Of a DNA stretch of 64,000 nt, positions 8,481 to 33,357 are shown piece by piece; within the stretch, counting starts at the first letter, position 1, and every line of letters begins with the position of its first letter. Made by a program: the position numbers and the translations under genes. The stretch lies in the NCBI GenBank assembly GCA_950073835.1, contig CATMRP010000004.1:1-64000 (forward strand), written 5' to 3'. This DNA comes from an uncultured Alteromonadaceae bacterium (GTDB lineage Bacteria > Pseudomonadota > Gammaproteobacteria > Enterobacterales > Alteromonadaceae). Below the pieces are notes generated by a model. It was not told where the DNA came from. It saw only the letters and a program-made list of their open reading frames with translations, and made no database searches.

Positions 8481-9983
8481 TCAGCCAGGTGCATAAACGG
8501 CTAAGAAATCCTTATGATGAAAAAGTTGCTCAACAGAGTGATTGAGGGAATAGTCGAATTTTTGGAGCAGTTTTATTAACTCGCTCACATTAGTGTTTTC
8601 CACCAATGGATCCATGCCGCGCGGTAATACACTCATGCCTGCCAGCACTGCATGCCAACTGTCAGAGGCAAACAGATCCAAATCGTTATGGACCAGTGCC
8701 CCTCGCGTGTTATACAAGGCCAGCTTTTGTTGCAGTGATTCAGGCAGCGCACGACGCTGCCAGCTTTGCCAGAATGGGGAATCATCCCGGTCCGACAAGC
8801 AATAGTGTAATACGATGAAGTCCCGAATATTTTCGTATTCTGCTGCCATCAAGCGGTTGTATTCAGCTGTGGTTGCCTGGCACGCAGGTATCGATGGCAA
8901 CAGCTTAGCGAGGTTAAGGACGCCTCGCATGATGAGGTAAATTCCGGTAGATTCAAGGGGCTCAAGAAAGCCTGAAGACAAACCAATAGCTACGCAATTT
9001 TTTTCCCAGAATACCTGGCGCCGACCGGTTTCAAAGCCAAGGTGTCTGGGTTCAGTCGTAACAGAGTCTTTCAGGCAAGCTGAAAAATATGCTGTTGCTT
9101 GCTCTACAGAGCAGTACTGATCACAAAACACCAGCCCATTGCCCACCCGGTTTTGTAGCGGAATGCGCCAGCGCCAGCCCATCGGCTCCGCGATAGACTC
9201 CGTGTAAGGCGGTAACGTTAAGGACTTTTCAGATTGCGCTACAATCGCGCCATTTACGGGCAGGTATTGCTGCCAGCTTTCAAATGCCACGCCCAGTGTT
9301 GTGCCTAGTAACAAAGCTTTGTCTCCGCTGCAATCGATAAAGAACTCTCCATCAATTTCGTTACCGTCGGCGGTAGTGAGCCCGGTAATAGTGCCGAGCG
9401 TGCGGTCAACGCGCACTCTATCAATATGCTCTCGCTTATGAATCACCCCTCTGCTGGTTGCATAGTCACATAAAAAGTCTGCGACGCGATGCGCATCGAA
9501 GTGGTATGCATAGCCCATCCGGCTTAAGTTAGTCGGTTTTGCCGAATCCGGCACAAAAAAACGGTGTTTTTCTGCCATACGCGCGGAGGGGGAAAAATCG
9601 GTATAGTCGTTCTGCAAGCCGCCGTGGCGTGCATTCAGCCACTGCTGAAAAAAGCTCTGACCGTCGATACGGGCGCCAACATTGCCAAAGGGGTGCCAGT
9701 AACTATGCCCTTTGTGAAGCCAGTCAGTAAAGCGGATCCCCAGTTTAAAAGTCGCCGCTGTGCTGGCGATAAACTCCTGCTCATTAATGCCCAGCAAGCG
9801 AACAAAATCTACAAATGAGGGCACCGTTGCTTCACCAACCCCGACGGACGGTTGATCCGGAGACTCAACTAATGTAATGCTCACCGATGATTGGGGTAAT
9901 ACCTTCGACAATAACGCCGCCGTCATCCACCCCGCCGTGCCACCGCCGACAATGACATACTGGCTAACATTTTGATGCTGCAT
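8481..9983 (-). CDS. Flavin-dependent tryptophan halogenase family protein
   Basis: YVIVGGGTAGWMTAALL (FAD motif), GVGEATVPSF, GFLEPLESTGIYLI. Start MQHQNVSQYV (9983) or 9998. Confidence 0.88.
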   Translation of the reverse strand: MQHQNVSQYVIVGGGTAGWMTAALLSKVLPQSSVSITLVESPDQPSVGVGEATVPSFVDFVRLLGINEQEFIASTAATFKLGIRFTDWLHKGHSYWHPFGNVGARIDGQSFFQQWLNARHGGLQNDYTDFSPSARMAEKHRFFVPDSAKPTNLSRMGYAYHFDAHRVADFLCDYATSRGVIHKREHIDRVRVDRTLGTITGLTTADGNEIDGEFFIDCSGDKALLLGTTLGVAFESWQQYLPVNGAIVAQSEKSLTLPPYTESIAEPMGWRWRIPLQNRVGNGLVFCDQYCSVEQATAYFSACLKDSVTTEPRHLGFETGRRQVFWEKNCVAIGLSSGFLEPLESTGIYLIMRGVLNLAKLLPSIPACQATTAEYNRLMAAEYENIRDFIVLHYCLSDRDDSPFWQSWQRRALPESLQQKLALYNTRGALVHNDLDLFASDSWHAVLAGMSVLPRGMDPLVENTNVSELIKLLQKFDYSLNHSVEQLFHHKDFLAVYAPG

Positions 9984-10020
9984 ACTCTTTACCTGCAATT
10001 ATCGCTGTATTTATAGCGCA

Positions 10021-10082: not shown

Positions 10083-12968
10083 TTAAAACGTTGCTCTGAG
10101 CCCCAGGTAATAACGCGTTCCGGTCATTTCTACCAAACTCACCCGGTCACGCTGACCGTAGTATTGTAAGCGGGTTTCGTTAGTGAGGTTTATCGCCTCC
10201 AGAGACACCGTGAAGTTTTCGTTAATATCGTATGAGGCGCTTGCATCCAACTGCCCGTAAGCATCATTATACTCAGGCTGAATACCGTCTCCGGAGCGAC
10301 TACTTAAAAACGAATCGCGCCAGTTATAGGCAATACGCGCCTGTATCGCATCTTTGTCATAAAAGGCAATGATGTTATAGGAGTTTTTTGCAAAGCCTTC
10401 CAGGCCATTACCCGGCTCTACCACAGAGGGCAGATTAATCGGCGCCGCGCCACTGTCTTCACTGTCGGCATAGGTATAGTTTGCTTGTACACCTAAACCC
10501 GGCAAAAACTCAAAGTTATGCAACAAGCCTAATTCAATGCCCTGCACAGTACCGCCCGGACGGTTTTCCTTGCGGGTTGAATTAAAAGTTACTGTTTGGC
10601 CGAGATTGGCATAAGCCTCTACCAGATCGGGTGAAATTGGCCCCTGCCAGGCACCGACAGTGGTGATGGTAGAGATAAAGTTGGAAATATCCTTATAGAA
10701 GAATGCCGCGGAATAGGCGTTGCCATTATCACCGTAGTACTCAAGCGAGAAGTCGAACTGATCAACTTCATAAGACTGCAGATAAGGATTGCCCCCGGCA
10801 ATAGTGACTGTCGGGCTATCAACACCGGCTGTTTCCCTTAAGTTTGCACCAGCATCGGCCAGCGACGGACGGGTGATAGTCTGGGCTGCAGCCAGGCGCA
10901 TCATAAAGCCGTTCTCTAAATTAAGCACAAAGTTTGCGCTGGGCAGGAAATGGCTTTCTGAGGTTTCCACTTCTGACGCTTTCGCAGACGTCGTTGCCGT
11001 GTTATCCACCGACTCAGGCAGATTCGAGGATTGCTCATTGATCATTAGCAGGTCAATGGTTGATGCGGTACCTTGCGCGGTATTGTTAATATCGATGTAG
11101 CGGGCACCTACGTTCCCCCGCCAGGTGTAGTCACCCAGTTCGCCCTCAAGGTTAAAGCGCGCATACAGGGCGCCCATTGATTCCTGATTCTGATAAGTGC
11201 CACCCGGGCTTGCGTAGACCGTATCCCAGCCATTGTTAACAATGTCAGCGCGCCAGTCATCACCGTTTGCTACCGCTTGCTCAAGGTATGCCTGGGTTGC
11301 TTCGCGGTACGCCTGATGATCGCTGATTTGCACCCACTGACGAGGAAAGCCTGAGCCTTCGCCATCCATAAAGTTATTGTCAGACAATTCCAGCACCGAA
11401 TTGGGTAACACACCAATGGACGCATCTGTGCCCCAGGTACTGCCGTCACCAATCCACATGCCTGCACCATTCCACGCTTCGCCGCCGGTGACCGGGTCAA
11501 ACTCAGTTCCAAAGTTCATAAATGCGATCTCCCGATCAATATACGAGGCGCCCACTTTCACCGACACCAGCGGCCCGGCATCAATGTCGTACAAGGCATC
11601 CAGCTTGACTTCTTTTACCGTATCTTCAGCTTCGTTCGCAGCATAACGTTGCCAGGCTGCCCGCACTTTGGATAAATCAGTAACATCCAGACTGCCATTG
11701 GTAGATAAACTGGGAATTTCATTGCGATAGTCGAGGACAATTTCGCCTGGCTGAATATCACCATTGTCATCAAACAATGTGTAGTGCAAGGCTGTCGTAT
11801 CGTCGCCCTCATAGCTACTCTCGGCTTTTGAATAAGATGCATCAAATTCAATTACAAACCGGTCACCGGTATAAACACCGTTGTAGCCAAATGCTGTGGT
11901 TTGTGACTCTTCAAGTCCGTACACCACATTCATTTCAAGGTCGGTGTTAGCAATCGTTGCCTCCAGCAGAGTTCCTTCATCACTGACTACCGCGCGTGTG
12001 TAACGGGGTGTCTGGTTAGGTACCTGCAGGCCCGATCCCAGATATTCACGCTGAAAATCGGTATACAGGACATCTAAGGTTGATTCAAAACTATCATTGG
12101 GTGCCCACTGCAGCGCGAAGTTAGCCCCAAAGCGCTCGCGGTCCTCATCAATCATATTGAATATTGTGCGTCCCGGTCCGCGGCTTCCGTCCAGTGTAGT
12201 TGGGTTACCGTCTTCTCCGAGCACTTCACCAGCGTCCATGGGAAAGCCATAGCCGCTCCCATTGCCGGCATACTGATTCCAAAGGGATGTACGGTAGTTA
12301 TCAATGCGGTTGCTGTTTTCTTTGTACGAGGCGCCAAACAGAACGCCCCAGGTGTCGTCATCGAAGGTGTTGCTTACAACACCGGCAAATTCGGGCGTCG
12401 CCTCCTCTATAAGACTGTGATAGTTGGCTTTTGCCGTTGCAGAGGCATTAAAACCTGGTTGTTGGAGGGGCTTAGCGGTTTTTATGTTGACATATGCGCC
12501 AATACTGCCGGCGGTAAGATCTGCAGTGGGTGACTTGATCACATCTGCACCGCTTATCAGCTGCGAGGGCAACACCTGAAAGTCAAAGCTTCTGCTGCCC
12601 GTGGTAGTGGCCAGGGTACGATTATTCAGCTTTACAACATTAAACTGGGGGCCAAAACTACGCACACTGATTTGTGAACCTTCGCCATTTACCCGTGAAA
12701 TAGACACCCCGGTAATACGTTGCAGTGATTCCGCCACGTTCTGATCGGGAAACTTGCCGATGTCTTCAGCAACAATGCTGTCCTGGATGACATCTGAGGT
12801 TTGCTTCTGAAACGCTGCCTTTTCGAGGCTGCCTCGCAATCCCTTAACCTGAATTACCTCCATATTTTGCTCGCCAGATTCACTCTGCGCTAGCGCTGAG
12901 TGGCTTAAGGCACAAGTTGACAGTGCCGCAAGCACGGCAAGAGAAACTTTGCTTTTAATCATTTTCAT
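10083..12968 (-). CDS. TonB-dependent receptor
   Basis: Signal peptide; plug domain DVIQDSIVAEDIGKFPDQNVAESLQRITGVSISR; C-terminal aromatic YYLGLRATF. Confidence 0.93.
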   Translation of the reverse strand: MKMIKSKVSLAVLAALSTCALSHSALAQSESGEQNMEVIQVKGLRGSLEKAAFQKQTSDVIQDSIVAEDIGKFPDQNVAESLQRITGVSISRVNGEGSQISVRSFGPQFNVVKLNNRTLATTTGSRSFDFQVLPSQLISGADVIKSPTADLTAGSIGAYVNIKTAKPLQQPGFNASATAKANYHSLIEEATPEFAGVVSNTFDDDTWGVLFGASYKENSNRIDNYRTSLWNQYAGNGSGYGFPMDAGEVLGEDGNPTTLDGSRGPGRTIFNMIDEDRERFGANFALQWAPNDSFESTLDVLYTDFQREYLGSGLQVPNQTPRYTRAVVSDEGTLLEATIANTDLEMNVVYGLEESQTTAFGYNGVYTGDRFVIEFDASYSKAESSYEGDDTTALHYTLFDDNGDIQPGEIVLDYRNEIPSLSTNGSLDVTDLSKVRAAWQRYAANEAEDTVKEVKLDALYDIDAGPLVSVKVGASYIDREIAFMNFGTEFDPVTGGEAWNGAGMWIGDGSTWGTDASIGVLPNSVLELSDNNFMDGEGSGFPRQWVQISDHQAYREATQAYLEQAVANGDDWRADIVNNGWDTVYASPGGTYQNQESMGALYARFNLEGELGDYTWRGNVGARYIDINNTAQGTASTIDLLMINEQSSNLPESVDNTATTSAKASEVETSESHFLPSANFVLNLENGFMMRLAAAQTITRPSLADAGANLRETAGVDSPTVTIAGGNPYLQSYEVDQFDFSLEYYGDNGNAYSAAFFYKDISNFISTITTVGAWQGPISPDLVEAYANLGQTVTFNSTRKENRPGGTVQGIELGLLHNFEFLPGLGVQANYTYADSEDSGAAPINLPSVVEPGNGLEGFAKNSYNIIAFYDKDAIQARIAYNWRDSFLSSRSGDGIQPEYNDAYGQLDASASYDINENFTVSLEAINLTNETRLQYYGQRDRVSLVEMTGTRYYLGLRATF

Positions 12969-13632: not shown

Positions 13633-13698
13633 TTTGCAATTTATGACTAACTCGACTTATGACTAACTACTATCCCTCAATACAGAATGGAGCACGTT

Positions 13699-15237
13699 AT
13701 GACCTTTACAACAAAGTGGTTTCAAACCGTTGAACCGGCAGCGCACAAAAGGCGTCCGTCGATAGTCAAAGCTTCAGGCCTGGCTCTGGGGCTTTTATTT
13801 TCCGGCCAGGTACTGAGCCAGAACCTGGTAACAAATCCAGGTTTTGAAAATGGTGTCAGTGGATGGAATACGTCCGGCACAACGTCAGCACAGATAATTG
13901 AGTCATCCGGCCGCAGCGGTAACCGGCTAACTCACTGGTCTGCTGACAGCAGTTACTCGGTGTCGACTTATCAGACGATAACCGGTCTGACTCCGGGTTC
14001 GTATCGTCTGTCAGCATATACAATTGGCGGCAATACCGATGAAGCCACACTGTTTGCCAGTGATTGCGGCGGTCAGAACAGCCAGACCGTGATTCCTGCT
14101 GCGGCATGGGGTAACTGGACGCAAGTGGTGCTGGATAACATTCAGGTAACCAGCAGTAGCTGTACCATCGGCATTTATACCCAAAACTCTGACTGGACCA
14201 GCATTGACGATGTTACCTTTGAACTGCAGTCACCCGCGCCAGGCACAAGTAACGACACTGCCGTTGAAATACTTGCCGATAAAGGATTTAACTATGCGCG
14301 CATTCGCTTGCTGGTAACTCCGCCAGATAGCTATGCGTTGCATCAGGATCTGGATTATGTGATTGCTATGGCCAAAGAAGCCAGGGCAAACAATATGAAT
14401 ATTCTGCTCGATATCTTTTACTCTAACTGGTGGGCTGATCCGGGCCAGAACTGGGCCCCTGCGGAGTGGTTTAATCAGGATGTAAATACTCTGGAAAATA
14501 CCGTGTATAACTACACCCGTGATGTGCTTAACCAGATGGCAGCAGAAGGCGTATTGCCGAATATGGTGCAGGTGGGTAACGAAGTAAACCCCGGCATGCT
14601 ATGGAATCTGGGTAATATCAGCGACAATGGATGGGGTAACTTTGTGAGATTTACCAACTCAGGGTACGATGCCGTAAAAAGCGTGTCGAACAATATTCCG
14701 GTCATCATTCATTACGCTGGTGTGGGCAGTGCCGCCACGTCCTGGTATGCCAGTTATACCAACAACGGCGGTAAAATGGATGCTATCGGACTGTCTTTTT
14801 ACGAAATGTGGCACGGTACAATTAACGATGCCACCACCACTATCAGCACGCTGCACAGCTACTTTAACATACCGGTATATATGGTAGAAACCGCTGCATA
14901 CTGGACCACCAGTGATGCAGGTAGCACTACGTCTTATCCGCAAACCAAACAAGGCCAGTATGACTACCTCTTTGATTTGACCAATGCGGTTAAAAATATT
15001 AATGGCTTCGCCGGCCTGTTTTATTGGGGGGCCACCTGGACACAATCCAACAATTGGTTGAATGCTCCTGACTGGCAGGATGACGATGCCGCCACACGTT
15101 CTTTGTTTGACAACAATGCGCAGGTCAACCCTGCTGCCAGTGCCATAATGGATGCTGGCGGGTTGTCAATTCGAGGAGTGGATATCTCAGAGGCACATTA
15201 TATCGAGTCAAATGGCGTACAATATCTGGATAATTAA
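13699..15237 (+). CDS. Glycoside hydrolase family 53 endo-beta-1,4-galactanase with N-terminal carbohydrate-binding-like module
   Basis: Signal peptide; NLVTNPGFENGVSGWNT (CBM-like); EILADKGFNYARIRLLVTPP, NWWADPGQNWAPAEW, VQVGNEVNPGMLWNLG characteristic of GH53. The motif IRGVDISEAHYIESNGVQYLDN lies at the extreme C-terminus. Confidence 0.85.
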   Translation: MTFTTKWFQTVEPAAHKRRPSIVKASGLALGLLFSGQVLSQNLVTNPGFENGVSGWNTSGTTSAQIIESSGRSGNRLTHWSADSSYSVSTYQTITGLTPGSYRLSAYTIGGNTDEATLFASDCGGQNSQTVIPAAAWGNWTQVVLDNIQVTSSSCTIGIYTQNSDWTSIDDVTFELQSPAPGTSNDTAVEILADKGFNYARIRLLVTPPDSYALHQDLDYVIAMAKEARANNMNILLDIFYSNWWADPGQNWAPAEWFNQDVNTLENTVYNYTRDVLNQMAAEGVLPNMVQVGNEVNPGMLWNLGNISDNGWGNFVRFTNSGYDAVKSVSNNIPVIIHYAGVGSAATSWYASYTNNGGKMDAIGLSFYEMWHGTINDATTTISTLHSYFNIPVYMVETAAYWTTSDAGSTTSYPQTKQGQYDYLFDLTNAVKNINGFAGLFYWGATWTQSNNWLNAPDWQDDDAATRSLFDNNAQVNPAASAIMDAGGLSIRGVDISEAHYIESNGVQYLDN

Positions 15238-15270
15238 GCGCTAATCCATTAATGTCGCTGTTATACAGAC

Positions 15271-15299
15271 AAAGCCTGTTGCACTGCCAACAGGCTTTT
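15271..15299 (+). terminator. Rho-independent-like terminator after GH53
   Basis: AAAGCCTGTTGCACTGCCAACAGGCTTTT hairpin followed by T-rich sequence. Confidence 0.7.
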
Positions 15300-15390
15300 C
15301 TGTATGTCGTAGCATATAAATGAGGTAAGCTGTTGATTATGCACACTCGTTTGTTTTTACCGAGGATGATTTAGCTAACAGGCCAATACC

Positions 15391-16707
15391 ATGCTTAAAC
15401 ACAAAGTGGCTCTGGGTAGTGGTTTTTTTGCCATTTTCTTTGTTGGTCATGGGATCGGTGCCCTGGCCATACCTTATTACCAAATGACGCTGGGCGTGGA
15501 CCCCTTTTTGTTAGGTCTGGTGCTGACCATTCCGGTTTTTTTCTCAGCGCTAATCAGCCCATGGGCGGCGACAGTCATTGATACCTTCTCACCTGTGCGA
15601 CACAGCCATCGCGTTATATTGACAGCGTCCGGCTGGTTTTGTGCGCTGTCATTTGCAGCAATGTGGCGGGTCCCCACTCACTGGTCGGATACGCTCAGCA
15701 TACTTTACCTGTTTGGATGCTCACTGGTCTTTTTCTTTTTTGCTACCTTCATGACGGTAGTAGTGCGCTGCCTGGCTGTTGAGTCAACCTCTGAGAGCCA
15801 TGAGCTGACTGCCGTAATGGGGTTCACCACTGTATTTGAAAAGCTCGGCTCTATCATCTATTTCTGGCTGTTTCCGCTGGCCCAGTCAAAACTGTTTTTT
15901 TCCCTTACGCTGGGTATGAAAACCATTGGCTTATGGGTATCTGTGCTTCTGATCGGTATGCTTTCAAGCATCAGTGGTCTGTTGTGTCGTTCCAGGGCAA
16001 AACGAGCCATAGCCCATGAAAACAACCCGGCCAGCACGCCTTTTTCGCCGTCCCTTTACAGCCAGGTCAAATGGCTGTTTGCCGTTACCGTAATCCAGTT
16101 TGGTCTCATCGGTGTGTGCATCAACCTGGATTTTTACGTGTTGGTCTACTTTGTGAACGCCGGTGACATTGCTCAGGGTGCGATCTGGAAAGGTTACCTT
16201 TCTACCGGTTATGCCCTGTTTGGATTGCTGGCTATTCCGGTGATAGTAAAAGCCGGCAACCACTTTGGTAAGAAGCGAACCCTGCAATTCATTTATGTTG
16301 TTAATTGCATTAATGCAGTGAGTAAGTGGTTTGTTTATCAGCCGGGGATGGAATACTGGCTTATTATCGACAGTTTACTCGGAACCTGGGTCTGGACAGC
16401 GCACACAACACTCATACCGGCACTACTTGCAGACATCTGTTATGAAAACCAACGTCTTACGGGCAGCTTAAGCGACAGTTATGTGGTTGCACGCCATAAC
16501 CGCGTAGCAAACCTGGCGCTGGTCATATCCTTTGTAGGCTCAGGTTTACTGCTCAATGTTATTGGCTTTAATGCAGATACCACTGCAGCTCAGTCGGACT
16601 CGGTGCTGCTCACAATGCGACTGGTGTTGGTTGCTGGCAGTCTGGTTTTCAGCGGGTTAGCGTTGTTGGTGCTGAGTAAGTTTACCTTTCAGCGCACAGT
16701 TACGTAG
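15391..16707 (+). CDS. MFS transporter (sugar/GPH-like symporter)
   Basis: 12-TM-like hydrophobic protein with GIGALAIPYYQMTLGVDPFLLGLVLTIP, as in GPH/MelB-like MFS; located in a sugar locus. Confidence 0.75.
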   Translation: MLKHKVALGSGFFAIFFVGHGIGALAIPYYQMTLGVDPFLLGLVLTIPVFFSALISPWAATVIDTFSPVRHSHRVILTASGWFCALSFAAMWRVPTHWSDTLSILYLFGCSLVFFFFATFMTVVVRCLAVESTSESHELTAVMGFTTVFEKLGSIIYFWLFPLAQSKLFFSLTLGMKTIGLWVSVLLIGMLSSISGLLCRSRAKRAIAHENNPASTPFSPSLYSQVKWLFAVTVIQFGLIGVCINLDFYVLVYFVNAGDIAQGAIWKGYLSTGYALFGLLAIPVIVKAGNHFGKKRTLQFIYVVNCINAVSKWFVYQPGMEYWLIIDSLLGTWVWTAHTTLIPALLADICYENQRLTGSLSDSYVVARHNRVANLALVISFVGSGLLLNVIGFNADTTAAQSDSVLLTMRLVLVAGSLVFSGLALLVLSKFTFQRTVT

Positions 16708-16738: not shown

Positions 16739-17746
16739 TTAAACGGGCGCTGCCGCTACGCTGTCACGCTCAATTAATGCCGATGTAAACAAGTGGGTTT
16801 TATTTTCCGGTGTGGCTGTGTCTTTGGCTAAATCGATAGCCAGTTTCGCGGCGTAGTTGGCCATTTCTTCAATGGGGTATTTGATAGTAGACAGTGTTGG
16901 GATACAGGCTTTACATAGTGCAGAATCATCAAAGCCCACTACAGAGACCTGTTGAGGCACCTTGTATCCATTTTTTACCAGCTCATGAACTACGCCCACC
17001 GCCATCAAATCGTTATAAGCAATGACTGCCGAAAAGGGCTCGCCACTTTGTAACAGTTCTCTGGCACAGGCTTTACCGCCTTCGAGGTTGGCTGTGGACT
17101 CCGCCAGTAGGTTTTCATTAAAGTTAAGGCCTTGCATCATAAAACCCTGACGCACGCCCAACAAACGCTGCTGAGGATCGCGGTTCTGATAAATGCTGGT
17201 TGCCACGGCAATGTGTTTGTGACCCTGGCTGGCTAACAAATCGACGATTTGTGCTGAGGAAGCCACATTGTCGAACCATACACAGCGATTGGCAATTTTG
17301 GGAATGTAACGATTAATGAAAACCAGCCCTTTATAGCGTTCACTTAACTCGATCAATTGCTTATCGGTTAAATAATCGCTGTGCATAAGAATCGACTCAC
17401 AGCCCTTGCCATGCAAGCTTTCAATGGCGGCCATTTCTGACTCTTCCTCATACAGGGAATTGCAGATAAGCAAACTGTAACCGTTAGCCCTTGCTGCGAC
17501 TTCAGCGCCCGCGGCAAGGTTACCAAAAAACTCCATCGAAATTTTGGGAGTAATGAGCCCCACATTCATGGTTTGGCGGTGCAAAAAAGCCTGTGAGGAA
17601 GAATTGGGTTTGTAGCCGAGTTCCTGAATAATTTTTTGCACTCTGGCGCGGCATGCGTCACCGACTTTCCCCTTGCCATTTACGACCCGGGAAACAGTCG
17701 CTGAAGAGACGCCAGCAGCCCTTGCTACATCACTGATTGTTACCAC
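16739..17746 (-). CDS. LacI-family transcriptional regulator
   Basis: N-terminal MVTISDVARAAGVSSATVSRVVNGKGKVGDACRARVQKIIQELGYKPN. Confidence 0.95.
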   Translation of the reverse strand: MVTISDVARAAGVSSATVSRVVNGKGKVGDACRARVQKIIQELGYKPNSSSQAFLHRQTMNVGLITPKISMEFFGNLAAGAEVAARANGYSLLICNSLYEEESEMAAIESLHGKGCESILMHSDYLTDKQLIELSERYKGLVFINRYIPKIANRCVWFDNVASSAQIVDLLASQGHKHIAVATSIYQNRDPQQRLLGVRQGFMMQGLNFNENLLAESTANLEGGKACARELLQSGEPFSAVIAYNDLMAVGVVHELVKNGYKVPQQVSVVGFDDSALCKACIPTLSTIKYPIEEMANYAAKLAIDLAKDTATPENKTHLFTSALIERDSVAAAPV

Positions 17747-17941: not shown

Positions 17942-20323
17942 CTAAAACGTATACGACGCCGCACCGAGTTCAGGTGACTCAACGGTAATTGTTGCACCGT
18001 CAGGTTCTCCAAAGGTTTTCATCAGAAAAGCCCCCTGACCTCGCTCACTGACGACCGGTTCAGGATTCACCAGTTCCAGGTTGCCTGTGGCAGTCAGGCT
18101 GATTGGAATGCCATTGTCGTAAACCGGATTGCCGTTCGCATCGCGTAACTGCGCGTAAACAAAAATCAGATCGGGCGACTCGCTGGCAATGGCAACACCA
18201 GCAGTATCTACCGCTAATGTCAGGCGCTCTGCCTCCCCCGGAGTCACCACTTCATGCTGTGCAACCTGCTGGCCGTCAATATAGGCCTCTGCGCGCAATG
18301 TCCCCGCAGTAAACTCAGCAAGACTAAAAGTAAGCGGAGGGTGGGGTAAGTGACTGGATAGTCGGGTGCGCTGTGGTGACTTTCTCTCTACAAGCTGATC
18401 GTTTAAGTACAGCGCAACTTCCTCGGCGTTGCTATAAATCCGGATGTCAGTACTGGAACTGCTTTGCCACTCGCTGGCGATAAAGACCATGGGTCCGCTG
18501 TCGTAAGCAGCACTCTCATGATCCGGTGAGCGCTGGCTTTGATAGAAATAATAGCTGTACTTAGGTTGCCGGTACACACTCATTGTGCCGGATGCTTCAA
18601 TATCGTCGGCATAGCCGCGGTTGTAATCAAACATTACCCAGTACCCATCAGCATACGCCGGTGTCTGCAGATTATCGTTATGAGCCTCCTGAATATTAGT
18701 GGCTTGCTGTAACAAACGCTTTTCTCCACTGCCTAACAATTGGCGACTGGTACGTTCCTCTTCTTTAAGCCCCTGCCAGTCATCCTGATTCAGCCCGGCA
18801 TTCTGGGCGTAATACTCCCAGTCACCGTACTCAGACACATTATAGGGTTGTCTTGGCTCTTCATAATGTTTGAGTCGGTGTTGTCGAGCTTGCAAGTAGA
18901 TGTCGTAGCCATGCATCCAGCCAGCAGAAAGCGCCCCCGGATACTCTTCTTTTACCGTATTATCTAATTCAGCAACAAACGCCTCCGGCATCGCTGACTC
19001 GTTCAAGGAGCACTCCCAGGCCATCACGGATGGATGGTTGCGGTCGCGACGGATCAGATCCCGGCAGGTTTCTATCACCTGCGCCTGAAATGCAGGATCC
19101 GGGTTATAAAACTGCCAGCCCAGAATGGCGTTAAGCAGCACTAACCCAAGTTCGTCTGCTGCTTTCATAAACGCCGGAGAGTGGGGATAATGAGATAACC
19201 GCACATAATTAAAGCCGGCCGACTTAATGCGCACTGCATCGCGATAATCAGCCTGAGGAGACAGCGCATAACCAACATGCGGGTATTCCTGATGGCGGTT
19301 AACACCACGCAAGAATACTTGTTCTCCGTTAATCAGAAGCTCGTGGTTGTCGTTAAAGGCAAACTCGCGGATACCAATTCTGCGGCTTTGCCGCTCCATT
19401 AACTCACCGTTATGCAGTAACGTTGTCTCCAGTTCATACAGGTTTGGCGAGTCAGGGCTCCATAAACGGGGCTGTTCAACTGTGAGCTGCTGTTCAAGCT
19501 TTTGATCCGCGCCTGCAGGCAAAACTATGCCCTGTTCCTCACTCAGAATAACTTCATCGTTGAATCGCAACGTCTGGCGCACTGTAACCTGCTTATTAGC
19601 AGCGCTGCGGTTGTGCAAATGAGTAGCAACATTCACTAGCGATTGCGCTTCGTCTACCGTGGGATAGGTGACAAATACCCCACCACCGGCGACTTTATTC
19701 GCCAATTGCTCATCGGTGATATGAACAGGCTCTTTAACAACCAGTGATACACTTCTGTACAGCCCACCATAAGTATTGAAATCCAATGTAGATAGTGGCT
19801 TGGGACCAATCAATTCATTGTCACGATTATCCAGCTTCACCAGTAATGTATTGTTACCAGGCTGCAGGTGATCAGTGAGGTCGAGGGTGAAAGGCAGGTA
19901 ACCGCCTTTGTGGTGCCCTATTTTTTTACCGTTTAACCACACGTCAGCGACTTTCATTGCCGCCTCGAAACGAATAAGGACGATTTTATCCTGCCACGAA
20001 TCTGACCACGGTAAGGCGCGTTGATACCAGGCAGTGCCCTGCCATTGATTATTAACGATCATGGGTTCAACTTTTGGCGTATGTGGCAGCGTTACTTCAG
20101 TCCAATTCGCTTGTGTCAGTGCACCCCTGTCTTCAACATCACGAACGAACCGCCACCCGGCATTTAAACTATATGGTGTTGGCACCTCATTCGTTAGCGA
20201 GGTGGAAAGCGTTCCCTGATGGTGAACCTGACTATGATTTAATTGCGATGCGACTGGTGGGTTGGTGTCTTTGGCACATCCTGACAGTGCCAATAAAGGA
20301 AGCAAGAAAACACACTTTTTCAC
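17942..20323 (-). CDS. Glycoside hydrolase family 2 (beta-galactosidase-like) lipoprotein
   Basis: Lipobox LALSGCAKD; GH2 motifs AWYQRALPW, LRGVNRHQEYPHVGYA, RLSHYPHSPAFMKAADELGLVLL, HPSVMAWECSLNE. Confidence 0.88.
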   Translation of the reverse strand: MKKCVFLLPLLALSGCAKDTNPPVASQLNHSQVHHQGTLSTSLTNEVPTPYSLNAGWRFVRDVEDRGALTQANWTEVTLPHTPKVEPMIVNNQWQGTAWYQRALPWSDSWQDKIVLIRFEAAMKVADVWLNGKKIGHHKGGYLPFTLDLTDHLQPGNNTLLVKLDNRDNELIGPKPLSTLDFNTYGGLYRSVSLVVKEPVHITDEQLANKVAGGGVFVTYPTVDEAQSLVNVATHLHNRSAANKQVTVRQTLRFNDEVILSEEQGIVLPAGADQKLEQQLTVEQPRLWSPDSPNLYELETTLLHNGELMERQSRRIGIREFAFNDNHELLINGEQVFLRGVNRHQEYPHVGYALSPQADYRDAVRIKSAGFNYVRLSHYPHSPAFMKAADELGLVLLNAILGWQFYNPDPAFQAQVIETCRDLIRRDRNHPSVMAWECSLNESAMPEAFVAELDNTVKEEYPGALSAGWMHGYDIYLQARQHRLKHYEEPRQPYNVSEYGDWEYYAQNAGLNQDDWQGLKEEERTSRQLLGSGEKRLLQQATNIQEAHNDNLQTPAYADGYWVMFDYNRGYADDIEASGTMSVYRQPKYSYYFYQSQRSPDHESAAYDSGPMVFIASEWQSSSSTDIRIYSNAEEVALYLNDQLVERKSPQRTRLSSHLPHPPLTFSLAEFTAGTLRAEAYIDGQQVAQHEVVTPGEAERLTLAVDTAGVAIASESPDLIFVYAQLRDANGNPVYDNGIPISLTATGNLELVNPEPVVSERGQGAFLMKTFGEPDGATITVESPELGAASYTF

Positions 20324-20702: not shown

Positions 20703-23138
20703 ATGTTTGCAACGCTACGAAAACTTCCCCTCCTGATGACGTTATTACCACTTTTGCTAGTGCCATACAGCGCAGCGTCGGAAGACCACGCCGAATTCAA
20801 TTTAAACTGGCGGTTCCATCACGGCCACAGCAAAGAGTTTAGCCAGGTTGAATTTGATGACTCAGGATGGCGTACAGTATCAATACCTCATGACTGGTCG
20901 ATTGAAGATCGCGGTGATAGCCAAAGCCCTTTTACTGACGATGCTCCCGGGGCCTATGACACCGGATATACAACAGGCGGGATTGGCTGGTACCGCAAAA
21001 CACTTACCGGAATAGAGCCTGACTATCGGTATATCCTGATCTTCGGTGGTGTATATATGAATTCGAGCATATTTGTTAATGGTATTGAAGTAGCGACACA
21101 CTATTATGGATATACCGGCTTTCAGGTGGATATCTCCGCTCACCTTCAGCCGAACAAGCAAAACATCATTGCCGTGAAGGTGCATAACAATGAGAAGAAC
21201 AGTCGTTGGTACAGCGGCTCGGGAATTTTCCGCCCGGTACAACTGATAAAAAAGCATCGTACTCACATAAAGGTATGGGGTACGAAGGTGGTGACTCGCA
21301 AAGTGCAAAACAAATCCGCCGAGCTGCAAATCAGCACTTCACTCACCCTTGACGGTACTCTCAAGCATCCTGTTGTGCTGGAAAACGAAGTGCTACTGGC
21401 AGGAAAACGCCAGGCTTTTGAACAGATTCCCGTTACTGATCAGGCGAACACTTTGCCTGTTGTCAGTACACTGACAGTAAACAATGCCGTACTCTGGGAA
21501 CCTGAAAATCCGCAGATGTATCAGCTTGTGCAGCGACTCAAACAGGGCGACACAATCATTGATCAACAAACCGTTCCCTTTGGCTTGCGCACCGTTGAAC
21601 TTAGTAAGACTGAAGGATTGTTATTAAACGGTATGCCAATCACTTTACGCGGCATGAACATTCACCACGATAACTATTCACTGGGGGCCGCAGCCCACCC
21701 ACAGGCTGAAGCCCGCAAAGTAAAAACCATCATTGCCGCTGGTTACAACGCCGTACGCTCTGCACATAACCCGCCATCGAGTGCGTTTTTACGCGCTGCA
21801 GACAAGCACGGGTTACTGGTTATCAGCGAAGCTTTTGACAGCTGGAACCAACATAAATGGGACAACATCAACGATTATTCAGCCGTGTTTAAACAGGATT
21901 GGCGAGCCGATTTAAGGCGGTTTATTCAGCGTGACGTCAATCACCCCAGCATTATTATGTGGAGCGTGGGTAATGAAATACCGGAACAAGAATCAGCATT
22001 AGGCGCTCGCACGGCCAAACAACTGGTTGAGCAAGTAAAAGCCCTGGATAACAGCCGTCCGGTGACCATTGGCACCAATACCTCAGGTGAATCGGCAGCG
22101 CAGTTTATTGCGAACTTTGATGTAGTTGGCTACAACTACCAACCGCACAATTACGTGAATGACTATGAGGCCGGCAGGGCCCGCTTTATGTATGGCTCAG
22201 AAACCTACTCAAAAGAGGCCTTCGATTACTGGCAACTGGTAGAGGAATATCCCTATGTTATTGGTGACTTTGTGTGGACCGGCTGGGATTATATGGGCGA
22301 AGCTTCCATCGGCTGGACAGGCTACGCGCCAGAATGGGCAGGCCTTGCCGATTACCCGTGGACACTGGCCTACACCGGCGAAATAGACGTACTCGGCAAT
22401 ATGCGTCCGGCAGCCTATTATCGACAGGTGTTGTGGAATACCGGCCAGTACACGGTATCGGCCTTTGTTGAAGCGCCTCACCCTTCGCTGTCACCTACGC
22501 CTGATCCACAATGGTATGATTACTGGACTTACCCGGACATTCACCCTAACTGGACCTGGCCTGAACAGCAGGGCAAGCCGGTAAATGTCACTGTATATTC
22601 GGTGTACCCGCAAGTAGAGTTGTTGGTGAATGACCGCAGTTACGGAACGCTGCCCACCAGCAAACAGCAGCAGTATACCGCACAGTTTAAGGTTCCCTAT
22701 CAACCAGGAGAGCTGCTTGCGCGAGGATTAAACAGTGATGGTGAGGTAATGGCAACGTGGCGTCTCTTAAGCAGCTCCCGCCCTGCCACAACAACCATTA
22801 CCCCTGAACAAAACAGCCTTCAGGCGAATGGGACTGACATTTTATATCTGGACATCCGGTTAGTGGATGCAAAGGGCCGGGAAGTCTATCACTGGGACTA
22901 CGATCAAGCGTTGACGGTGAATGTGTCAGGTGCCGCAACCCTTATTGCCCTGGGCAATGGGAACCCACGCTCAGCGGCAAGTTTTAAGCAATCACAGCGC
23001 AAAACATTTCGCGGCAAGCTACAGGCAATTATTCAGTCGAACGGAGAATTAGGCGATATCAGGGTTGTCGTTAGTGGTAAAGGTCTCAAGACTCAACGCC
23101 TGTTTTTAGTAACCACGCCTGGTAAGTTGCACAATTGA
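20703..23138 (+). CDS. Glycoside hydrolase family 2 beta-galactosidase
   Basis: Signal peptide; WRTVSIPHDWSIED, GGIGWYRKTL, RGMNIHHDNYSLGAA, NAVRSAHNPPSSAFLRAADKHGLLVISEAFDSW, HPSIIMWSVGNEIPE. Confidence 0.92.
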   Translation: MFATLRKLPLLMTLLPLLLVPYSAASEDHAEFNLNWRFHHGHSKEFSQVEFDDSGWRTVSIPHDWSIEDRGDSQSPFTDDAPGAYDTGYTTGGIGWYRKTLTGIEPDYRYILIFGGVYMNSSIFVNGIEVATHYYGYTGFQVDISAHLQPNKQNIIAVKVHNNEKNSRWYSGSGIFRPVQLIKKHRTHIKVWGTKVVTRKVQNKSAELQISTSLTLDGTLKHPVVLENEVLLAGKRQAFEQIPVTDQANTLPVVSTLTVNNAVLWEPENPQMYQLVQRLKQGDTIIDQQTVPFGLRTVELSKTEGLLLNGMPITLRGMNIHHDNYSLGAAAHPQAEARKVKTIIAAGYNAVRSAHNPPSSAFLRAADKHGLLVISEAFDSWNQHKWDNINDYSAVFKQDWRADLRRFIQRDVNHPSIIMWSVGNEIPEQESALGARTAKQLVEQVKALDNSRPVTIGTNTSGESAAQFIANFDVVGYNYQPHNYVNDYEAGRARFMYGSETYSKEAFDYWQLVEEYPYVIGDFVWTGWDYMGEASIGWTGYAPEWAGLADYPWTLAYTGEIDVLGNMRPAAYYRQVLWNTGQYTVSAFVEAPHPSLSPTPDPQWYDYWTYPDIHPNWTWPEQQGKPVNVTVYSVYPQVELLVNDRSYGTLPTSKQQQYTAQFKVPYQPGELLARGLNSDGEVMATWRLLSSSRPATTTITPEQNSLQANGTDILYLDIRLVDAKGREVYHWDYDQALTVNVSGAATLIALGNGNPRSAASFKQSQRKTFRGKLQAIIQSNGELGDIRVVVSGKGLKTQRLFLVTTPGKLHN

Positions 23139-23820: not shown

Positions 23821-23955
23821 TCATATGTTATAAAGTTGTTATGGCATGAGAAAACACCGACGGGCAAATGTCTGCGCCCCTTTTGACATCAATGCTCATG
23901 CACTCAAACAATTTTTTTGACACACATGAAAGCCTTTACCTTAGGAGGTAACTGG

Positions 23956-26613
23956 ATGAGGACACCGTTTAAATTAAGCCTTGCTGCAATGGCACTCGCA
24001 GAGTGCTTAAATGTATCAGCAGCGAACGCACAAGAGACTGAAAATACAGAAACTGATACCGATGCCATTGAAGCAGAAGTCATTACCGTACGCGGTTTTG
24101 GTAATACCCTGACGCGGTCATTGCAATATAAGAAATTAGCCGACTCAACCGTTGAAATAATCTCAACGGATGACCTTGGTCAGCTACCTGACGTCACAAT
24201 TACCGATGCCCTTGCCCGCTTACCAGGTATTGCAGCCGACCGAGATCGTGGCAACGCCAGCCAAATATCTATACGGGGAATGGGACCGCGCTTAAATCTG
24301 GCCACCATGAATGGTCGTGAAATTGTCAGCGGCGAGCCTAGCCGCAGCGTGCGTTACGAACAATTCCCTGCGGAATTGATTAGTTCAGTTGAAGTATATA
24401 AAAGTCCACTGGCAAAAAATATTGAAGGCGGCATTTCGGGACTCGTCGACATGCAATTTGTGGAGCCTTTGGATAAAGAAGAAAGCCTGCTGAATGTCAG
24501 CGGTCATATCATGCAGTATCCCCTTGCGGACGATATACCCACCGCAGATAGTGATGGCTACCGGGCTAATTTCAGTTACATCGATCCAGTTTCTGACACC
24601 TTTGGTTATGCCTTTGGCATTGCCGTTCAGGATCAGCCATCTATTCAAAAAGACGTGACCTCATGGGAATATAATAATGTCACTGCTGACCAAGGTGATG
24701 CCAATGGCAATGGCGTGCCGGAAGCCGCTCCCTGGGGCGCACAAACTGCAACGAAAGGCGGTAATAATCAACGCCTCGGCGCAATGACCGTGTTGCAGTG
24801 GTTACCTACTGATCGCCTTGAGATGAAGTACGATTTATTCTATTCCAAATTCGATATTGAAGAGCGTGAAGACCAGATATGGTTTGACGGCTGGGGTAAC
24901 TGGGGTGGCCTGAATAACTGGAATATCGCTAATGCGAGTAACCCGCCGCAAATCATTACAAAAGAGGATGGTTCGGAACAAATCATCGCAGGCGGTATGT
25001 TATGGGGCGGTAGTCACACCGCCAACAATTCTACCTGGTTTCAAACCAATGAACTGATCAGTACTGGGTTAAACGCCGAGTGGCTGGGAGATGAGTGGAA
25101 AATCAATACGGATATTGGTTACTCAGAAGCGTCTATTGAATCCCGCTGGGTGAATATTCAGTCCTGGTACTATGATGCCGAGGCCGATGCTAATGGTATG
25201 GATTACAGCTGGGATACCACCGGCGAGCGTCTGGCCATTGGCACTGGTTATGATATCAGCGATATCAGTGATTATGGCCTTAACTATATGCAGGTTGATA
25301 ACGACCGCATATTAGAAGATGAAATGATTACGGCGAAAGTGGATTTCTCCCGTCCACTTGAGTGGGGAGTGATTGATGCGATTACCTTTGGTGTTCGTTG
25401 GACGGATCGTGAAAAAGATAACAATGTTGTAAGCTGGCAACAGGATGTCAGTGACGCCAACGTCATGGTTGATGCTTTTGCCTACGAACTCGGTGATGGT
25501 TACGATGTCCCGGCACTTTATAGCATCGGAAATTGGTCAGAAGTCGCCGAATCTGCCTTTGGTGGTATCGACAATCGCACTCAGCATAACCAAACAAATA
25601 ATGACGTATTAAACAGCTGGAACGTAGAGGAAACCAATAGCGCAGCGTACTTTCAGTTTAATCTCAATGGCGAGATTGCAGGTATTCCCTACACCGGTAA
25701 TGCCGGCGTAAGATATGTCAGCACGCAATCCACCTCCAGTGGTTTTCAACAGTCTGACGGCGGCGCCTTAACCGCAGTGTCTATTGACCATGATTACGCT
25801 GAAATACTGCCGGCATTAAACCTGCGTTTTAGTATTACTGACGATTCGCAAATCCGTTTTGCGCTGTCCCGTGCCATGTCGCGCCCACCTTTAATCGAAA
25901 TGCGTACAGGACTACAAATCAATACAACATCGACAGTGAGAACTGCATCAGGAGGAAACCCTCAGTTAAATCCCTTTGTGGCTGATCAGATTGACCTCGG
26001 CTATGAATACTTTTTTGCTGAAGATGCTGCGCTGACTGTTTCATTGTTTTTTAAAGATCTGGAGAGCCATGTTGGCTCTGCAACAGAAACCTTAAATATT
26101 AATGGTGATAACTATCAGTTTACCGGTCCGATAAATGGTGACGGAGGTCAGATTCGCGGCGTGGAAGTGATGTACCAGCAAGCCTTTAATATGCTGCCAG
26201 AACCCTTCGATGGGCTTGGTATTTACACAAACTACAGCTACACCGACACCAACGTCAAAGAGTTTGAGCCACAAAACGATCCACTGATCATGGGCGGACT
26301 TTCAAAAAACGTGGGTAGTCTTACTCTGTGGTACTACAAGGCGGGAATCGATGCAAAAATGTCTTACAACTACCGCAGTGCATACACCAGCGTTGGTAGT
26401 TGGGACCCGGGGGCAATTTTCACCATCGATGATGAAGCAACTCTGGATGCCAGCATCGCTTACGAGTTTACAGAAAACTTCCGGGTAATGTTACAAGGTC
26501 AGAATCTGACCAACGAAGCATCAACCTCATATTTTGATAATGATCCATCCCGACCTCGACAGTATGCCGAGTGGGGACGCCGTTATCTGTTTGGCTTTCA
26601 ATACTCAATGTAA
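23956..26613 (+). CDS. TonB-dependent receptor
   Basis: VEIISTDDLGQLPDVTITDALARLPGIAADRDRGNASQISIRGMGPRLNLATMNGREI plug domain; the strong Shine-Dalgarno TTAGGAGGT favours ATG 23956 over the upstream ATGs. Confidence 0.92.
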   Translation: MRTPFKLSLAAMALAECLNVSAANAQETENTETDTDAIEAEVITVRGFGNTLTRSLQYKKLADSTVEIISTDDLGQLPDVTITDALARLPGIAADRDRGNASQISIRGMGPRLNLATMNGREIVSGEPSRSVRYEQFPAELISSVEVYKSPLAKNIEGGISGLVDMQFVEPLDKEESLLNVSGHIMQYPLADDIPTADSDGYRANFSYIDPVSDTFGYAFGIAVQDQPSIQKDVTSWEYNNVTADQGDANGNGVPEAAPWGAQTATKGGNNQRLGAMTVLQWLPTDRLEMKYDLFYSKFDIEEREDQIWFDGWGNWGGLNNWNIANASNPPQIITKEDGSEQIIAGGMLWGGSHTANNSTWFQTNELISTGLNAEWLGDEWKINTDIGYSEASIESRWVNIQSWYYDAEADANGMDYSWDTTGERLAIGTGYDISDISDYGLNYMQVDNDRILEDEMITAKVDFSRPLEWGVIDAITFGVRWTDREKDNNVVSWQQDVSDANVMVDAFAYELGDGYDVPALYSIGNWSEVAESAFGGIDNRTQHNQTNNDVLNSWNVEETNSAAYFQFNLNGEIAGIPYTGNAGVRYVSTQSTSSGFQQSDGGALTAVSIDHDYAEILPALNLRFSITDDSQIRFALSRAMSRPPLIEMRTGLQINTTSTVRTASGGNPQLNPFVADQIDLGYEYFFAEDAALTVSLFFKDLESHVGSATETLNINGDNYQFTGPINGDGGQIRGVEVMYQQAFNMLPEPFDGLGIYTNYSYTDTNVKEFEPQNDPLIMGGLSKNVGSLTLWYYKAGIDAKMSYNYRSAYTSVGSWDPGAIFTIDDEATLDASIAYEFTENFRVMLQGQNLTNEASTSYFDNDPSRPRQYAEWGRRYLFGFQYSM

Positions 26614-26836: not shown

Positions 26837-27853
26837 ATGCACATATTAGTTACCGGCGGTGCCGGATATATTGGTAGCCATACCTGCATTGCACTCATTG
26901 AAGCAGGCCATACAGTCGTAGTGGTCGATGATTTTTCAAACAGTCATCCCGAAGCCCTCAAGCGAGTCGAAACCATTTGTGAGACAAGCGTTCCTCTGTA
27001 TCAGGGCGATGTCGGTAGCAGGGCACTGCTGGAGCAAATTTTTAGTGAGCACAATATTGATGGCGTTATCCACTTTGCCGGCTCTAAAGCGGTTGGCGAG
27101 TCAGTAGAAAAGCCCATGCTGTATTACCGCAATAATGTAACAGCCAGTCAGGTTTTGATCGAAACCATGCAACATGCCGGCGTGCATACCTTAGTATTTA
27201 GTTCATCTGCAACGGTATATGGCGACCCGCACAGTGTGCCAATAGCAGAGGACTTTCCGGTTGGCGCAACCAACCCTTATGGACGAAGTAAACTGGTGGT
27301 CGAGCAGATAATGCAGGATCAGGCTGTCGCTAATAGTGCATTTAACGCCATCATACTGCGGTATTTTAATCCGGTTGGCGCACACGCCAGCGGTAAAATT
27401 GGTGAAGATCCAAACGGCATCCCAAACAACCTGATGCCATTTATTGCCCAGGTAGCCGTGGGGAAACGTTCCGAGCTGTCTATCTTCGGTGGAGATTATC
27501 CCACCAAGGATGGCACCGGCGTCAGGGACTATATTCACGTGTGTGACCTGGCCGAAGGTCACGCCAAAGCGTTAGAAACCCTGCATGGTAAACCAGGAGC
27601 ACATATTTTTAATTTAGGCACAGGCGCAGGTGTATCGGTACTTGATATGGTTAAAGCCTACGCCAGGGTGAGTCAGCGACCAATTCCATACCAAATTGTT
27701 GCACGACGCCCCGGCGATGTTGCGCAATGCTACGCCTCCCCGGATCATGCAAAAACTGTATTAGGGTGGCAGGCAGTGCGCAGTCTTGATGATATGGTGG
27801 CAAGCAGCTGGCGCTGGCAGTCATCCAATCCGCATGGTTACCGTGAAGCATAA
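26837..27853 (+). CDS. galE: UDP-glucose 4-epimerase
   Basis: MHILVTGGAGYIGSHTCIALIEAGH...NPYGRSKLVVEQI...YNFRxxGxGD-type region GDYPTKDGTGVRDYIHV. Confidence 0.95.
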   Translation: MHILVTGGAGYIGSHTCIALIEAGHTVVVVDDFSNSHPEALKRVETICETSVPLYQGDVGSRALLEQIFSEHNIDGVIHFAGSKAVGESVEKPMLYYRNNVTASQVLIETMQHAGVHTLVFSSSATVYGDPHSVPIAEDFPVGATNPYGRSKLVVEQIMQDQAVANSAFNAIILRYFNPVGAHASGKIGEDPNGIPNNLMPFIAQVAVGKRSELSIFGGDYPTKDGTGVRDYIHVCDLAEGHAKALETLHGKPGAHIFNLGTGAGVSVLDMVKAYARVSQRPIPYQIVARRPGDVAQCYASPDHAKTVLGWQAVRSLDDMVASSWRWQSSNPHGYREA

Positions 27854-27869
27854 TTTAAGGAGAGACCCG

Positions 27870-30428
27870 ATGTTTACCAAACCAGTTAAGACGGCACTAC
27901 TGTTCAGCGCATTAGCTTTAAACGGGCCGGCTGCTATGGCCGGCAACGAGTCACAGCCAATACCGGTTTCTGTTGAAAATGGCACACTGCGGTGGGCAAA
28001 TGGCGAGCCGGTATATCTGTTTGGCGCCAATTACAGCGCGCCTTTTGCCTATGGCTATCGCGCTATCGCACGCCGCGGCATCGATCATAAAGCAGCGATA
28101 GACATGGATGTTGACCACATAGCACGGCTCAAACTGGATGCCTATCGCATTCATGTGTGGGATAAAGTAATCAGTGATAAGGAAGGAAATCTCCTTGATA
28201 ACCAATATCTTGATCTGTTTGATTACCTGATGATGCGTTTACAGGAACGTGGCATTCGCGCCATTATTACTCCTATAGCCTGGTGGGGTTCGGGTTACCC
28301 CGAACCGGATCCTTCTGAACCCGGTTTTGCTGTGGGTTACAGTAAAAATGACATGAATGAAAACCCGGCACTCATCGCTGCACAACAGCGTTACCTGAGT
28401 CAGTTTTTAGCTCACAAAAACCGTTACACCGGCAAAGTCATAGGCCAGCACCCTGACATTATCGCTTTTGAATTATTTAATGAGCCTAAACACCGCCAGG
28501 CGCCTGAAAAAAGTGCCGCCTATGTGGAAACACTGATCACCACCATACGGGATGCGGGCGTCAGTAAACCTTTGTTTTACAACATCAGTGAGCAGGGTAA
28601 TCAACCTAAGTTTGCTGAAGCCATATGCCAGTCGTCAATTGATGGCATTGCATATCAGTGGTATCCCACAGGCTTACTGAAATACAGTACGCTGAATACC
28701 AATGTTTTACCCGCGGTTTCGACCTATACAGATCCCTTCAACACCATTCAGGCATGTCACGACAAGGCAAAAATGGTGTACGAGTTTGATGCTGCCGATA
28801 TCACCAATAGCGTTACCTACCCGGCTATGGCCCGCAGTTTTCGCGACACTGGCTTTCAGTGGGCCACCCAGTTTGCCTATGACCCGGCGGTCATTGCCGA
28901 CACAAACTCAGACTACAACACGCATTTTCTGAATTTGTTATATACGCCATCAAAAGCCCTGAGTTTAATGATTGCAGGAGAAGAATTCAGAAGTCTGCCA
29001 GAAGGTTACAAAGCGCCGCCATACCCTGACAGCAATCAGTTCCACCACACCACACTCGATTATCTGCACAATACGGCGTTATTTGATGACGGTAGCCAAT
29101 ACTATTATACCAACACTACACAGGTATCGCCGAAACAGCTTAGCACTCTGAAACATATTGCCGGGGTGGGTTCATCCCCCATTGTTGAGTACACCGGCTC
29201 AGGCGCCTACTTTCTGGATAAAGTGGGCAGTCAGGGCTGGCGTCTGGAGGTGTTCCCTGATGTGATTCAATTGCAGGATCCACATCAAAACTCCAGTCTC
29301 TCACGTGAAGTAGCGCGCTTATCACGGCAACAAAATGCCATAACCGTCTCATTACCGGATCTGGGGGATTCATTTTGGGTACGGGGCGTCGACAACGCTA
29401 ATGACCTTGTATCAGAGGCAGCCTCGGGCAGTTTTACTGTAAGGCCAGGTGTGTACTGGCTATCAGCATCAAACGCTGTACCTGAGACTCTGGATACAAT
29501 GTATCTGTTACCTGATATCAAACCTGCGCAAACACTTGTTACCCATCAGCAGCAACGCCAGCGCAACATTAATGAACCGCTGACATTTAGTGTTGCCGTA
29601 CAAAGTCAAACACCCGATCCTAGTGTAATATTGCAACTACGCTACGAGGGCTACAACGACTTTGTCAGCATACCCATGAAACGCAATGATAAGGGCCGCT
29701 ACAGTGTTGCACTACCTGATGACAATGCGTGGCGATTGCCTGGCAAACTCGAGTACGCTTTCACAATAGTTGATGGAGATACAACCTTGACGTTCCCAAA
29801 TGCTCAGTCAGGTAAACCGCAGGACTGGGACTTTGTAAATAGTAAGTACTACCATACCTTATTGCAGCCTGAGGGTACGCCAATTCCATTGTTCACACCT
29901 TCTGAGGCAAGAGGTACGTTTGTAGTACCCCAGAATACAGTCAGTTGGCCCGCTTCGTCAGCAACAATGGAGGGAGAAACGGTAAAGCTGGAAGTGTTTA
30001 AGGACCAGGTGCAAACAGGCGGCCCATTATTGCGGACTGACCTACCCACCAATGCAACACTGAGAGACCGGAAGCTGGACGACTATAACGCCATTGCCCT
30101 TCGTATCCGAGCTCTGGGAGGCAAAGACCGCCTGCAGTTTGGTGTGATCGCGAATGACGGACTGGCCTATGGTACTGACTTCGAAGTTGCCAAAGAATGG
30201 AAAACGCTGGTTATCCCGGTATCGGCCCTGCAACCCGTTCCCACATTATTAACCCGCGCTTACCCGATGTTTATGCCTGTTTCCATTGGACCATTTGATG
30301 ACAAGGAAACACTTTCGCTCAACCAAGTGACCGGATTACAGTTATCACTACCACCGCTTAAACGTCAGAGAAAGTCAGCCTGGCGCGGTATCGAACTGGG
30401 CGATATTGCACTGATTCAAGTCGATTAA
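27870..30428 (+). CDS. Secreted cellulase-like (clan GH-A, GH5-type) glycoside hydrolase with C-terminal accessory region
   Basis: Signal peptide; GEPVYLFGANY, DAYRIHVWD, HPDIIAFELFNEPKH, YEFDAADI. RBS AAGGAGA before ATG 27870; the longer track ORF start at 27786 overlaps galE. Confidence 0.7.
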   Translation: MFTKPVKTALLFSALALNGPAAMAGNESQPIPVSVENGTLRWANGEPVYLFGANYSAPFAYGYRAIARRGIDHKAAIDMDVDHIARLKLDAYRIHVWDKVISDKEGNLLDNQYLDLFDYLMMRLQERGIRAIITPIAWWGSGYPEPDPSEPGFAVGYSKNDMNENPALIAAQQRYLSQFLAHKNRYTGKVIGQHPDIIAFELFNEPKHRQAPEKSAAYVETLITTIRDAGVSKPLFYNISEQGNQPKFAEAICQSSIDGIAYQWYPTGLLKYSTLNTNVLPAVSTYTDPFNTIQACHDKAKMVYEFDAADITNSVTYPAMARSFRDTGFQWATQFAYDPAVIADTNSDYNTHFLNLLYTPSKALSLMIAGEEFRSLPEGYKAPPYPDSNQFHHTTLDYLHNTALFDDGSQYYYTNTTQVSPKQLSTLKHIAGVGSSPIVEYTGSGAYFLDKVGSQGWRLEVFPDVIQLQDPHQNSSLSREVARLSRQQNAITVSLPDLGDSFWVRGVDNANDLVSEAASGSFTVRPGVYWLSASNAVPETLDTMYLLPDIKPAQTLVTHQQQRQRNINEPLTFSVAVQSQTPDPSVILQLRYEGYNDFVSIPMKRNDKGRYSVALPDDNAWRLPGKLEYAFTIVDGDTTLTFPNAQSGKPQDWDFVNSKYYHTLLQPEGTPIPLFTPSEARGTFVVPQNTVSWPASSATMEGETVKLEVFKDQVQTGGPLLRTDLPTNATLRDRKLDDYNAIALRIRALGGKDRLQFGVIANDGLAYGTDFEVAKEWKTLVIPVSALQPVPTLLTRAYPMFMPVSIGPFDDKETLSLNQVTGLQLSLPPLKRQRKSAWRGIELGDIALIQVD

Positions 30429-32130: not shown

Positions 32131-32200
32131 AGTATTTTCCAACTTTTTTTGTTTTTTAACGGGCCGGATTTACCCGGTGCAAATGAGCTATGTTAAGACG

Positions 32201-33346: not shown

Positions 33347-33357
33347 GTAACTTCTCT

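Follow-up and report, generated by a model that had tools for sequence, protein, structure and literature searches.

Linear members of family GH53 (PF07745), in which strand 1 precedes helix 1, include the enzymes of Ignisphaera (7osk), B. licheniformis (1ur0/1r8l), G. proteiniphilus (GanA, 9fli) and fungi (1fhl/1hjs). The roles of the two catalytic glutamates in GH53 have been described (PMC8447715). Natural permutations of glycosidase barrels are few, and the cases that we found in the open-access literature all belong to clan GH-H: GH70 glucansucrases and GtfB enzymes are permuted relatives of GH13 (PMC11299179), and E. coli MalS (GH13_19) is a natural circular permutation (PMC10223318). 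Transaldolase and class I aldolase are likewise permuted TIM barrels (PMC2213659). We found no published permuted GH53 or permuted clan GH-A enzyme in the open-access literature. Circularly permuted glycosidase barrels are thus already known in clan GH-H, and what appears to be new here is one in GH53, in clan GH-A. The protein described below resembles GH70/GtfB and MalS in being a naturally permuted glycoside-hydrolase barrel; those enzymes, however, are alpha-glucan-active and are cut at other sites. The transaldolase/aldolase permutation is ancient and was recognised by structure, whereas the permuted and linear forms of GH53 are still 41-49% identical. Since the permutation is recent by this measure and moved a single strand, cause and effect could be tested by building both orders of one protein.

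The window, a stretch of 64,000 nucleotides from an uncultured Alteromonadaceae bacterium, contains a gene that we interpret as encoding a secreted GH53 endo-beta-1,4-galactanase whose (beta/alpha)8 barrel is permuted by one strand, with strand 1 completing the barrel in cis. We give this reading a probability of roughly 0.8. The order of domains in the 516-residue protein is putative signal peptide, CBM61-like module, GH53 from strand 2 to helix 8, and finally strand 1. The features of the gene are as follows.

13687-15237, + strand: open reading frame of the permuted GH53 protein, 516 aa counted from the first ATG
13699-13815, + strand: putative signal peptide, residues 5-43, read from the sequence (basic HKRR, then a hydrophobic stretch)
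13816-14226, + strand: CBM61-like carbohydrate-binding module, residues 44-180, by phmmer to 2xom
14227-14256, + strand: linker QSPAPGTSND at the new barrel N-terminus, residues 181-190; the cut lies between strand 1 and helix 1
14257-15138, + strand: GH53 catalytic domain from helix 1/strand 2 to helix 8, residues 191-484, profile positions 31-334
14416-14418, + strand: F244, replacing the strand-3 His that is found in 59/59 linear GH53s (alignment)
14581-14583, + strand: E299, predicted to act as acid/base; it falls on the GNE motif in the alignment with solved GH53s; Glu in 59/59
14887-14889, + strand: E401, predicted nucleophile; it aligns with the site of the E263A mutation in 2gft; Glu in 59/59
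15139-15168, + strand: last part of helix 8 with the short connection to strand 1, SAIMDAGGLS, residues 485-494
15169-15234, + strand: transposed strand-1 segment, residues 495-516, IRGVDISEAHYIESNGVQYLDN; profile positions 4-24
15263-15305, + strand: terminator-like hairpin 3' of the stop, its core conserved in a second species

The first ATG in frame is at 13687. The likelier start is the ATG at 13699, as the first-pass annotation of this DNA had assumed, with a GGAG (13689-13692) six bases upstream. The reading frame, the order of motifs and the terminator after the stop were also found as that annotation had described them. The hairpin AAAGCCTGTTG...CAACAGGCTTTT has a folding energy of -23.3 kcal/mol (z = -6.2) and is followed by a T run; a generic terminator scan did not include it among its listed terminators. 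An NCBIfam search gave no match. The carbohydrate-binding module matched 2xom over residues 42-176 (phmmer 2.6e-10); 2xom and 2xon are the solved galactanase CBMs. We take 2xom, a chain from a galactanase, to be a CBM61, and the assignment of our module is one of similarity to 2xom. The Pfam family CBM_4_9 matched the module below its cut-off only.

The strand order was analyzed with two profiles. PF07745 matched the protein with 242.3 bits (E 9.1e-72; curated cut-off 24), and the match covered residues 188-484 and profile positions 26-337 of 340, the N-terminal part of the profile being absent. Annotation by this best segment only would mask the permutation, and the enzyme would then look merely truncated. 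Our own profile, built from 59 non-permuted GH53 ORFs of Pseudomonadota genomes and plasmids, gave the two segments in swapped order that had been predicted from the motifs: positions 31-334 at residues 191-484, followed by positions 4-24 at residues 495-515, one residue short of the stop. When the tail was put in front of the domain in silico, PF07745 gave a single unbroken match from 1 to 337, and the score rose from 242.3 to 262.5 bits. The C-terminal stretch of 32 residues (485-516) scored 13.0 bits, while the best among 5000 shuffles scored 5.3 bits, shuffles below the reporting level being counted as lower. The tail carries the core residues of strand 1: G497 (58/58 in linear GH53s), D499 (58/58), S501 (56/58), E507 (53/58) and G510 (57/58).

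A strand 1 ahead of helix 1 would have contradicted the permuted order, but the CBM/GH53 junction, read in all forward frames, showed no remnant of strand 1. No further GH53 piece was found in any forward frame of the 153 bases 3' of the stop, in agreement with the earlier view that the tail does not begin a second complete domain, and no second GH53 was found in the same genome. Every segment thus occurs a single time and the order is rotated, with replacement confined to loop residues at the cut, and homologues with the original order exist. The canonical GH53 order, strand 1 first, is not that of this protein. Judged by its sequence, the protein is a permuted relative of GH53 and not a canonical member of the family.

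A search for homologues with the same order, as had been proposed, found one in another species, the MAG HF-Dia07 (JABXHM010000038.1; L009/L003/L076). The two proteins are 94% identical over 516 aa, and the flanking genes are identical in kind and arrangement to those in the window. Comparison of the two permuted genes gave dN of 0.033 and dS of 0.447, and dN/dS was about 0.07 for the whole gene and for the tail alike. In the tail (494-516), the two copies differ by 4 synonymous changes and a single nonsynonymous one; at the dS of the gene, an unconstrained tail would be expected to show about 17 nonsynonymous changes. The stop codons differ (TAA/TGA) at an identical position. Since order, neighbours and constraint on the tail are shared, selection has maintained the permuted order in no fewer than two species. 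Conservation of the same rearrangement under strong selection indicates a genuine circular permutation of natural origin in GH53.

Alignment with the 59 linear GH53s showed that the acid/base Glu on strand 4 and the nucleophile Glu on strand 7 are both present. Of 36 near-invariant columns, 33 are retained, among them E299, E401 and, in the tail, G497, D499, S501 and G510. The three columns that are not retained all lie around strand 3: F244 (His in 59/59), N255 (Gln in 59/59) and N247 (Asp in 56/59). The same three residues are found in the second permuted copy, so that the strand-3 H-Y-S of GH53 reads F-Y-S in both. The permuted protein therefore shares with the linear GH53s the catalytic Glu pair, most near-invariant residues and the top matches of a fold search, and differs from them in having strand 1 after helix 8, not before helix 1, and Phe in place of the strand-3 His. 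By analogy within clan GH-A, the end of strand 3 faces the substrate. The rate, activity or specificity of the galactanase may consequently have shifted through the strand-3 changes.

There is another possible interpretation of these data, which we consider unlikely. Fusion to the CBM may have removed strand 1, and the tail may be a structurally idle leftover of a second, deleted GH53 copy, which would leave a seven-stranded or dead barrel, perhaps retained for galactan binding. Alteration of the invariant strand-3 His and its two neighbours is compatible with such decay, as is the poor modelling of the tail in one AlphaFold run. The tail, however, is under purifying selection similar to that of the core and has an identical end point in both species, between which dS is 0.45; its near-invariant strand-1 residues are conserved, and so are both catalytic Glu. 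The first-pass annotation had offered a permuted barrel or the remnant of a duplication. The swapped segments and the selection on the tail favour the former, and a mere remnant is disfavoured because there is no other strand 1, there is no second GH53 and the tail is selected.

The structure was predicted twice. AlphaFold model 1, made with an alignment of five sequences, had a mean pLDDT of 65; in it, residues 482-489 form a helix and residues 496-499 a strand (pLDDT about 62). In a fold search with this model, ranks 1-13 were GH53 crystal structures, the best being 7osk (E 2.8e-20). In model 2, of the GH53 part alone, strands 2-8 were modelled, but the last 68 or so residues had pLDDT below 50 and formed no tail strand; the tail was still unplaced although strand-1 fragments of GH53s from viral contigs had been added as extra alignment rows. 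Modelling had been proposed to see whether the C-terminal strand fills the beta-1 slot; on this point the two models disagree, with a tail strand in the first and none in the second.

Helix 8 of a (beta/alpha)8 barrel ends at the bottom, next to strand 1, so that a turn as short as DAGGLS can connect the two. We propose that the chain was opened in the beta1-alpha1 loop and that the former chain ends were linked by this short turn after helix 8. Strand 1 would be synthesised last and would take up its normal position between strands 2 and 8 of the same molecule, so that one new break in the beta1-alpha1 loop would be the only cost of the permutation. Alternatively, the C-terminal strand 1 might complete the barrel of a neighbouring molecule, and dimers or oligomers would then form by domain swapping. 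The tail lies at the end of the chain, after a glycine-containing linker, and the computed data are equally compatible with cis and trans pairing. Nevertheless, given where helix 8 ends in a barrel, the joint DAGGLS is long enough for a turn in cis, and we regard exchange between molecules as very unlikely.

It is scarcely credible that a sequencing or assembly error, such as a wrong join in a tandem gene or a normal one, mimics the swap, a possibility that had been named as fatal to the permuted order, because, although both genome assemblies are fragmented, the diverged assembly of MAG HF-Dia07 shares the order with 94% identity, identical junctions, an intact ORF, mostly synonymous differences and the same neighbours, and a second GH53 is absent from the genome.

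The direction of the change was examined with the linear relatives. Among the 59 non-permuted ORFs, the profile match starts at position 1-5 in 58; in the remaining one (L067), a stop interrupts the reading frame. When the relinearised domains were placed in a maximum-likelihood tree, the two permuted proteins came out as sister to three GH53s of Deinococcus plasmids (WP_264777783.1, WP_014695569.1 and WP_249395704.1) with support of 100/100. These are the nearest relatives in the set, at 41-49% identity, and their genes adjoin beta-galactosidase genes. Unlike the permuted pair, they are linear, with strand 1 at the N-terminus (e.g. WIRGVDVSEARGAEAAGVQFRD), and have no CBM. Since this sister group and all 58 intact non-permuted ORFs are linear, the permuted order is the derived state.

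A permutation usually arises when a gene is duplicated in tandem and in frame and then acquires new start and stop points (PMC2213659). The permuted GH53 is likely to have arisen in this way, by in-frame tandem duplication and subsequent trimming, and the new start would have been provided by fusion to the CBM. No intermediate tandem form was found among the GH53s searched. Modules similar to this CBM occur in linear GH53s, at the N-terminus in a Streptomyces protein and at the C-terminus in Alteromonadales, the order of the host. The best-matching CBM of the set is that of Streptomyces fungicidicus WP_121548951.1, which is N-terminal as here and is followed by PGTSGLSVKGADIS. The barrel of WP_121548951.1 is linear, however, so that its CBM is attached to the bottom of strand 1, whereas the CBM of the permuted protein is attached to helix 1. 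With the barrel opened in a beta-alpha loop, the CBM on the new N-terminus would be expected on the catalytic face, near the substrate groove, and not at the barrel bottom. The permutation might even be a functional innovation, in which this placement of the CBM, together with F244, N247 and N255, allows a new substrate or mode of attack; we regard this as tentative and rather doubtful.

The permuted gene is part of a galactan-use locus, which includes LacI regulators and contains the following genes.

8481-9998, - strand: tryptophan-halogenase-like protein, beside the receptor
10083-12968, - strand: TonB-dependent receptor
15391-16707, + strand: MFS sugar transporter
16739-17746, - strand: LacI-type regulator
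17942-20323, - strand: GH2 glycosidase, likely a beta-galactosidase by inferred specificity
20703-23138, + strand: second GH2 glycosidase
23917-26613, + strand: second TonB-dependent receptor
26837-27853, + strand: NAD-dependent epimerase (GalE-like)
30568-34416, - strand: SSF symporter, galactokinase and galactose-1-P uridylyltransferase (GalK, GalT; Leloir pathway)

That the permuted protein is the only GH53 in the locus and in the genome argues that it supplies the endo-galactanase step, with a predicted activity on galactan. An ORF of 880 aa in the same locus (27786-30428, + strand) has a weak Pfam GH5 match (2e-5) and may encode a divergent glycosidase.

Further permuted members were searched for with the protein or PF07745 as query, in 1999 genome look-ups in all, some of them overlapping. 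Beyond MAG HF-Dia07, no permuted GH53 was found in the genus (60 genomes) or in samples of the family, order, class and phylum, nor in one GTDB contig scan, plasmids, phages or viral contigs. Among these 60 genomes of the genus, the permuted GH53 is present in two only, and a third has a distant linear GH53. Several candidates were rejected. Matches in G1161, G790 and G1085 start near profile position 26-30 and were discarded as permuted forms after reading. The first of them (L072, G1161:C30, 884-2986, + strand) is a divergent GH53-like domain from profile position 26 with no C-terminal RGxDxS; those in G790 and G1085 resemble a regulator-type protein and a GH5-like protein. A tblastn match in Deinococcus QL22 to query residue 512 runs beyond a stop codon, and the protein is linear. 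The profile start at 35 in L067 (G1353:C70) results merely from a frame interrupted by TAA in a linear GH53.

Some other observations were made in the course of these searches. The catalytic domain of L072 sits behind a long N-terminal region. L067, from the same family as the host, is probably a broken gene, and a second GH53 lies elsewhere in its genome. GH53 genes (L078, L079 and L080) are present on contigs classed as viral in IMG/VR, L078 near an integrase-like ORF. Two short "Listeria phage" records (OR849165.1 and OR847100.1) carry a CBM-GH53-like gene that covers 84% of the query, and are possibly mislabelled or contaminating. Finally, positions 51368-62949 (+ strand) of the window encode a methyltransferase-like protein, a ResIII/helicase with a PLD domain, an AAA ATPase and a large AAA protein, a cluster that resembles a defence or mobile island.
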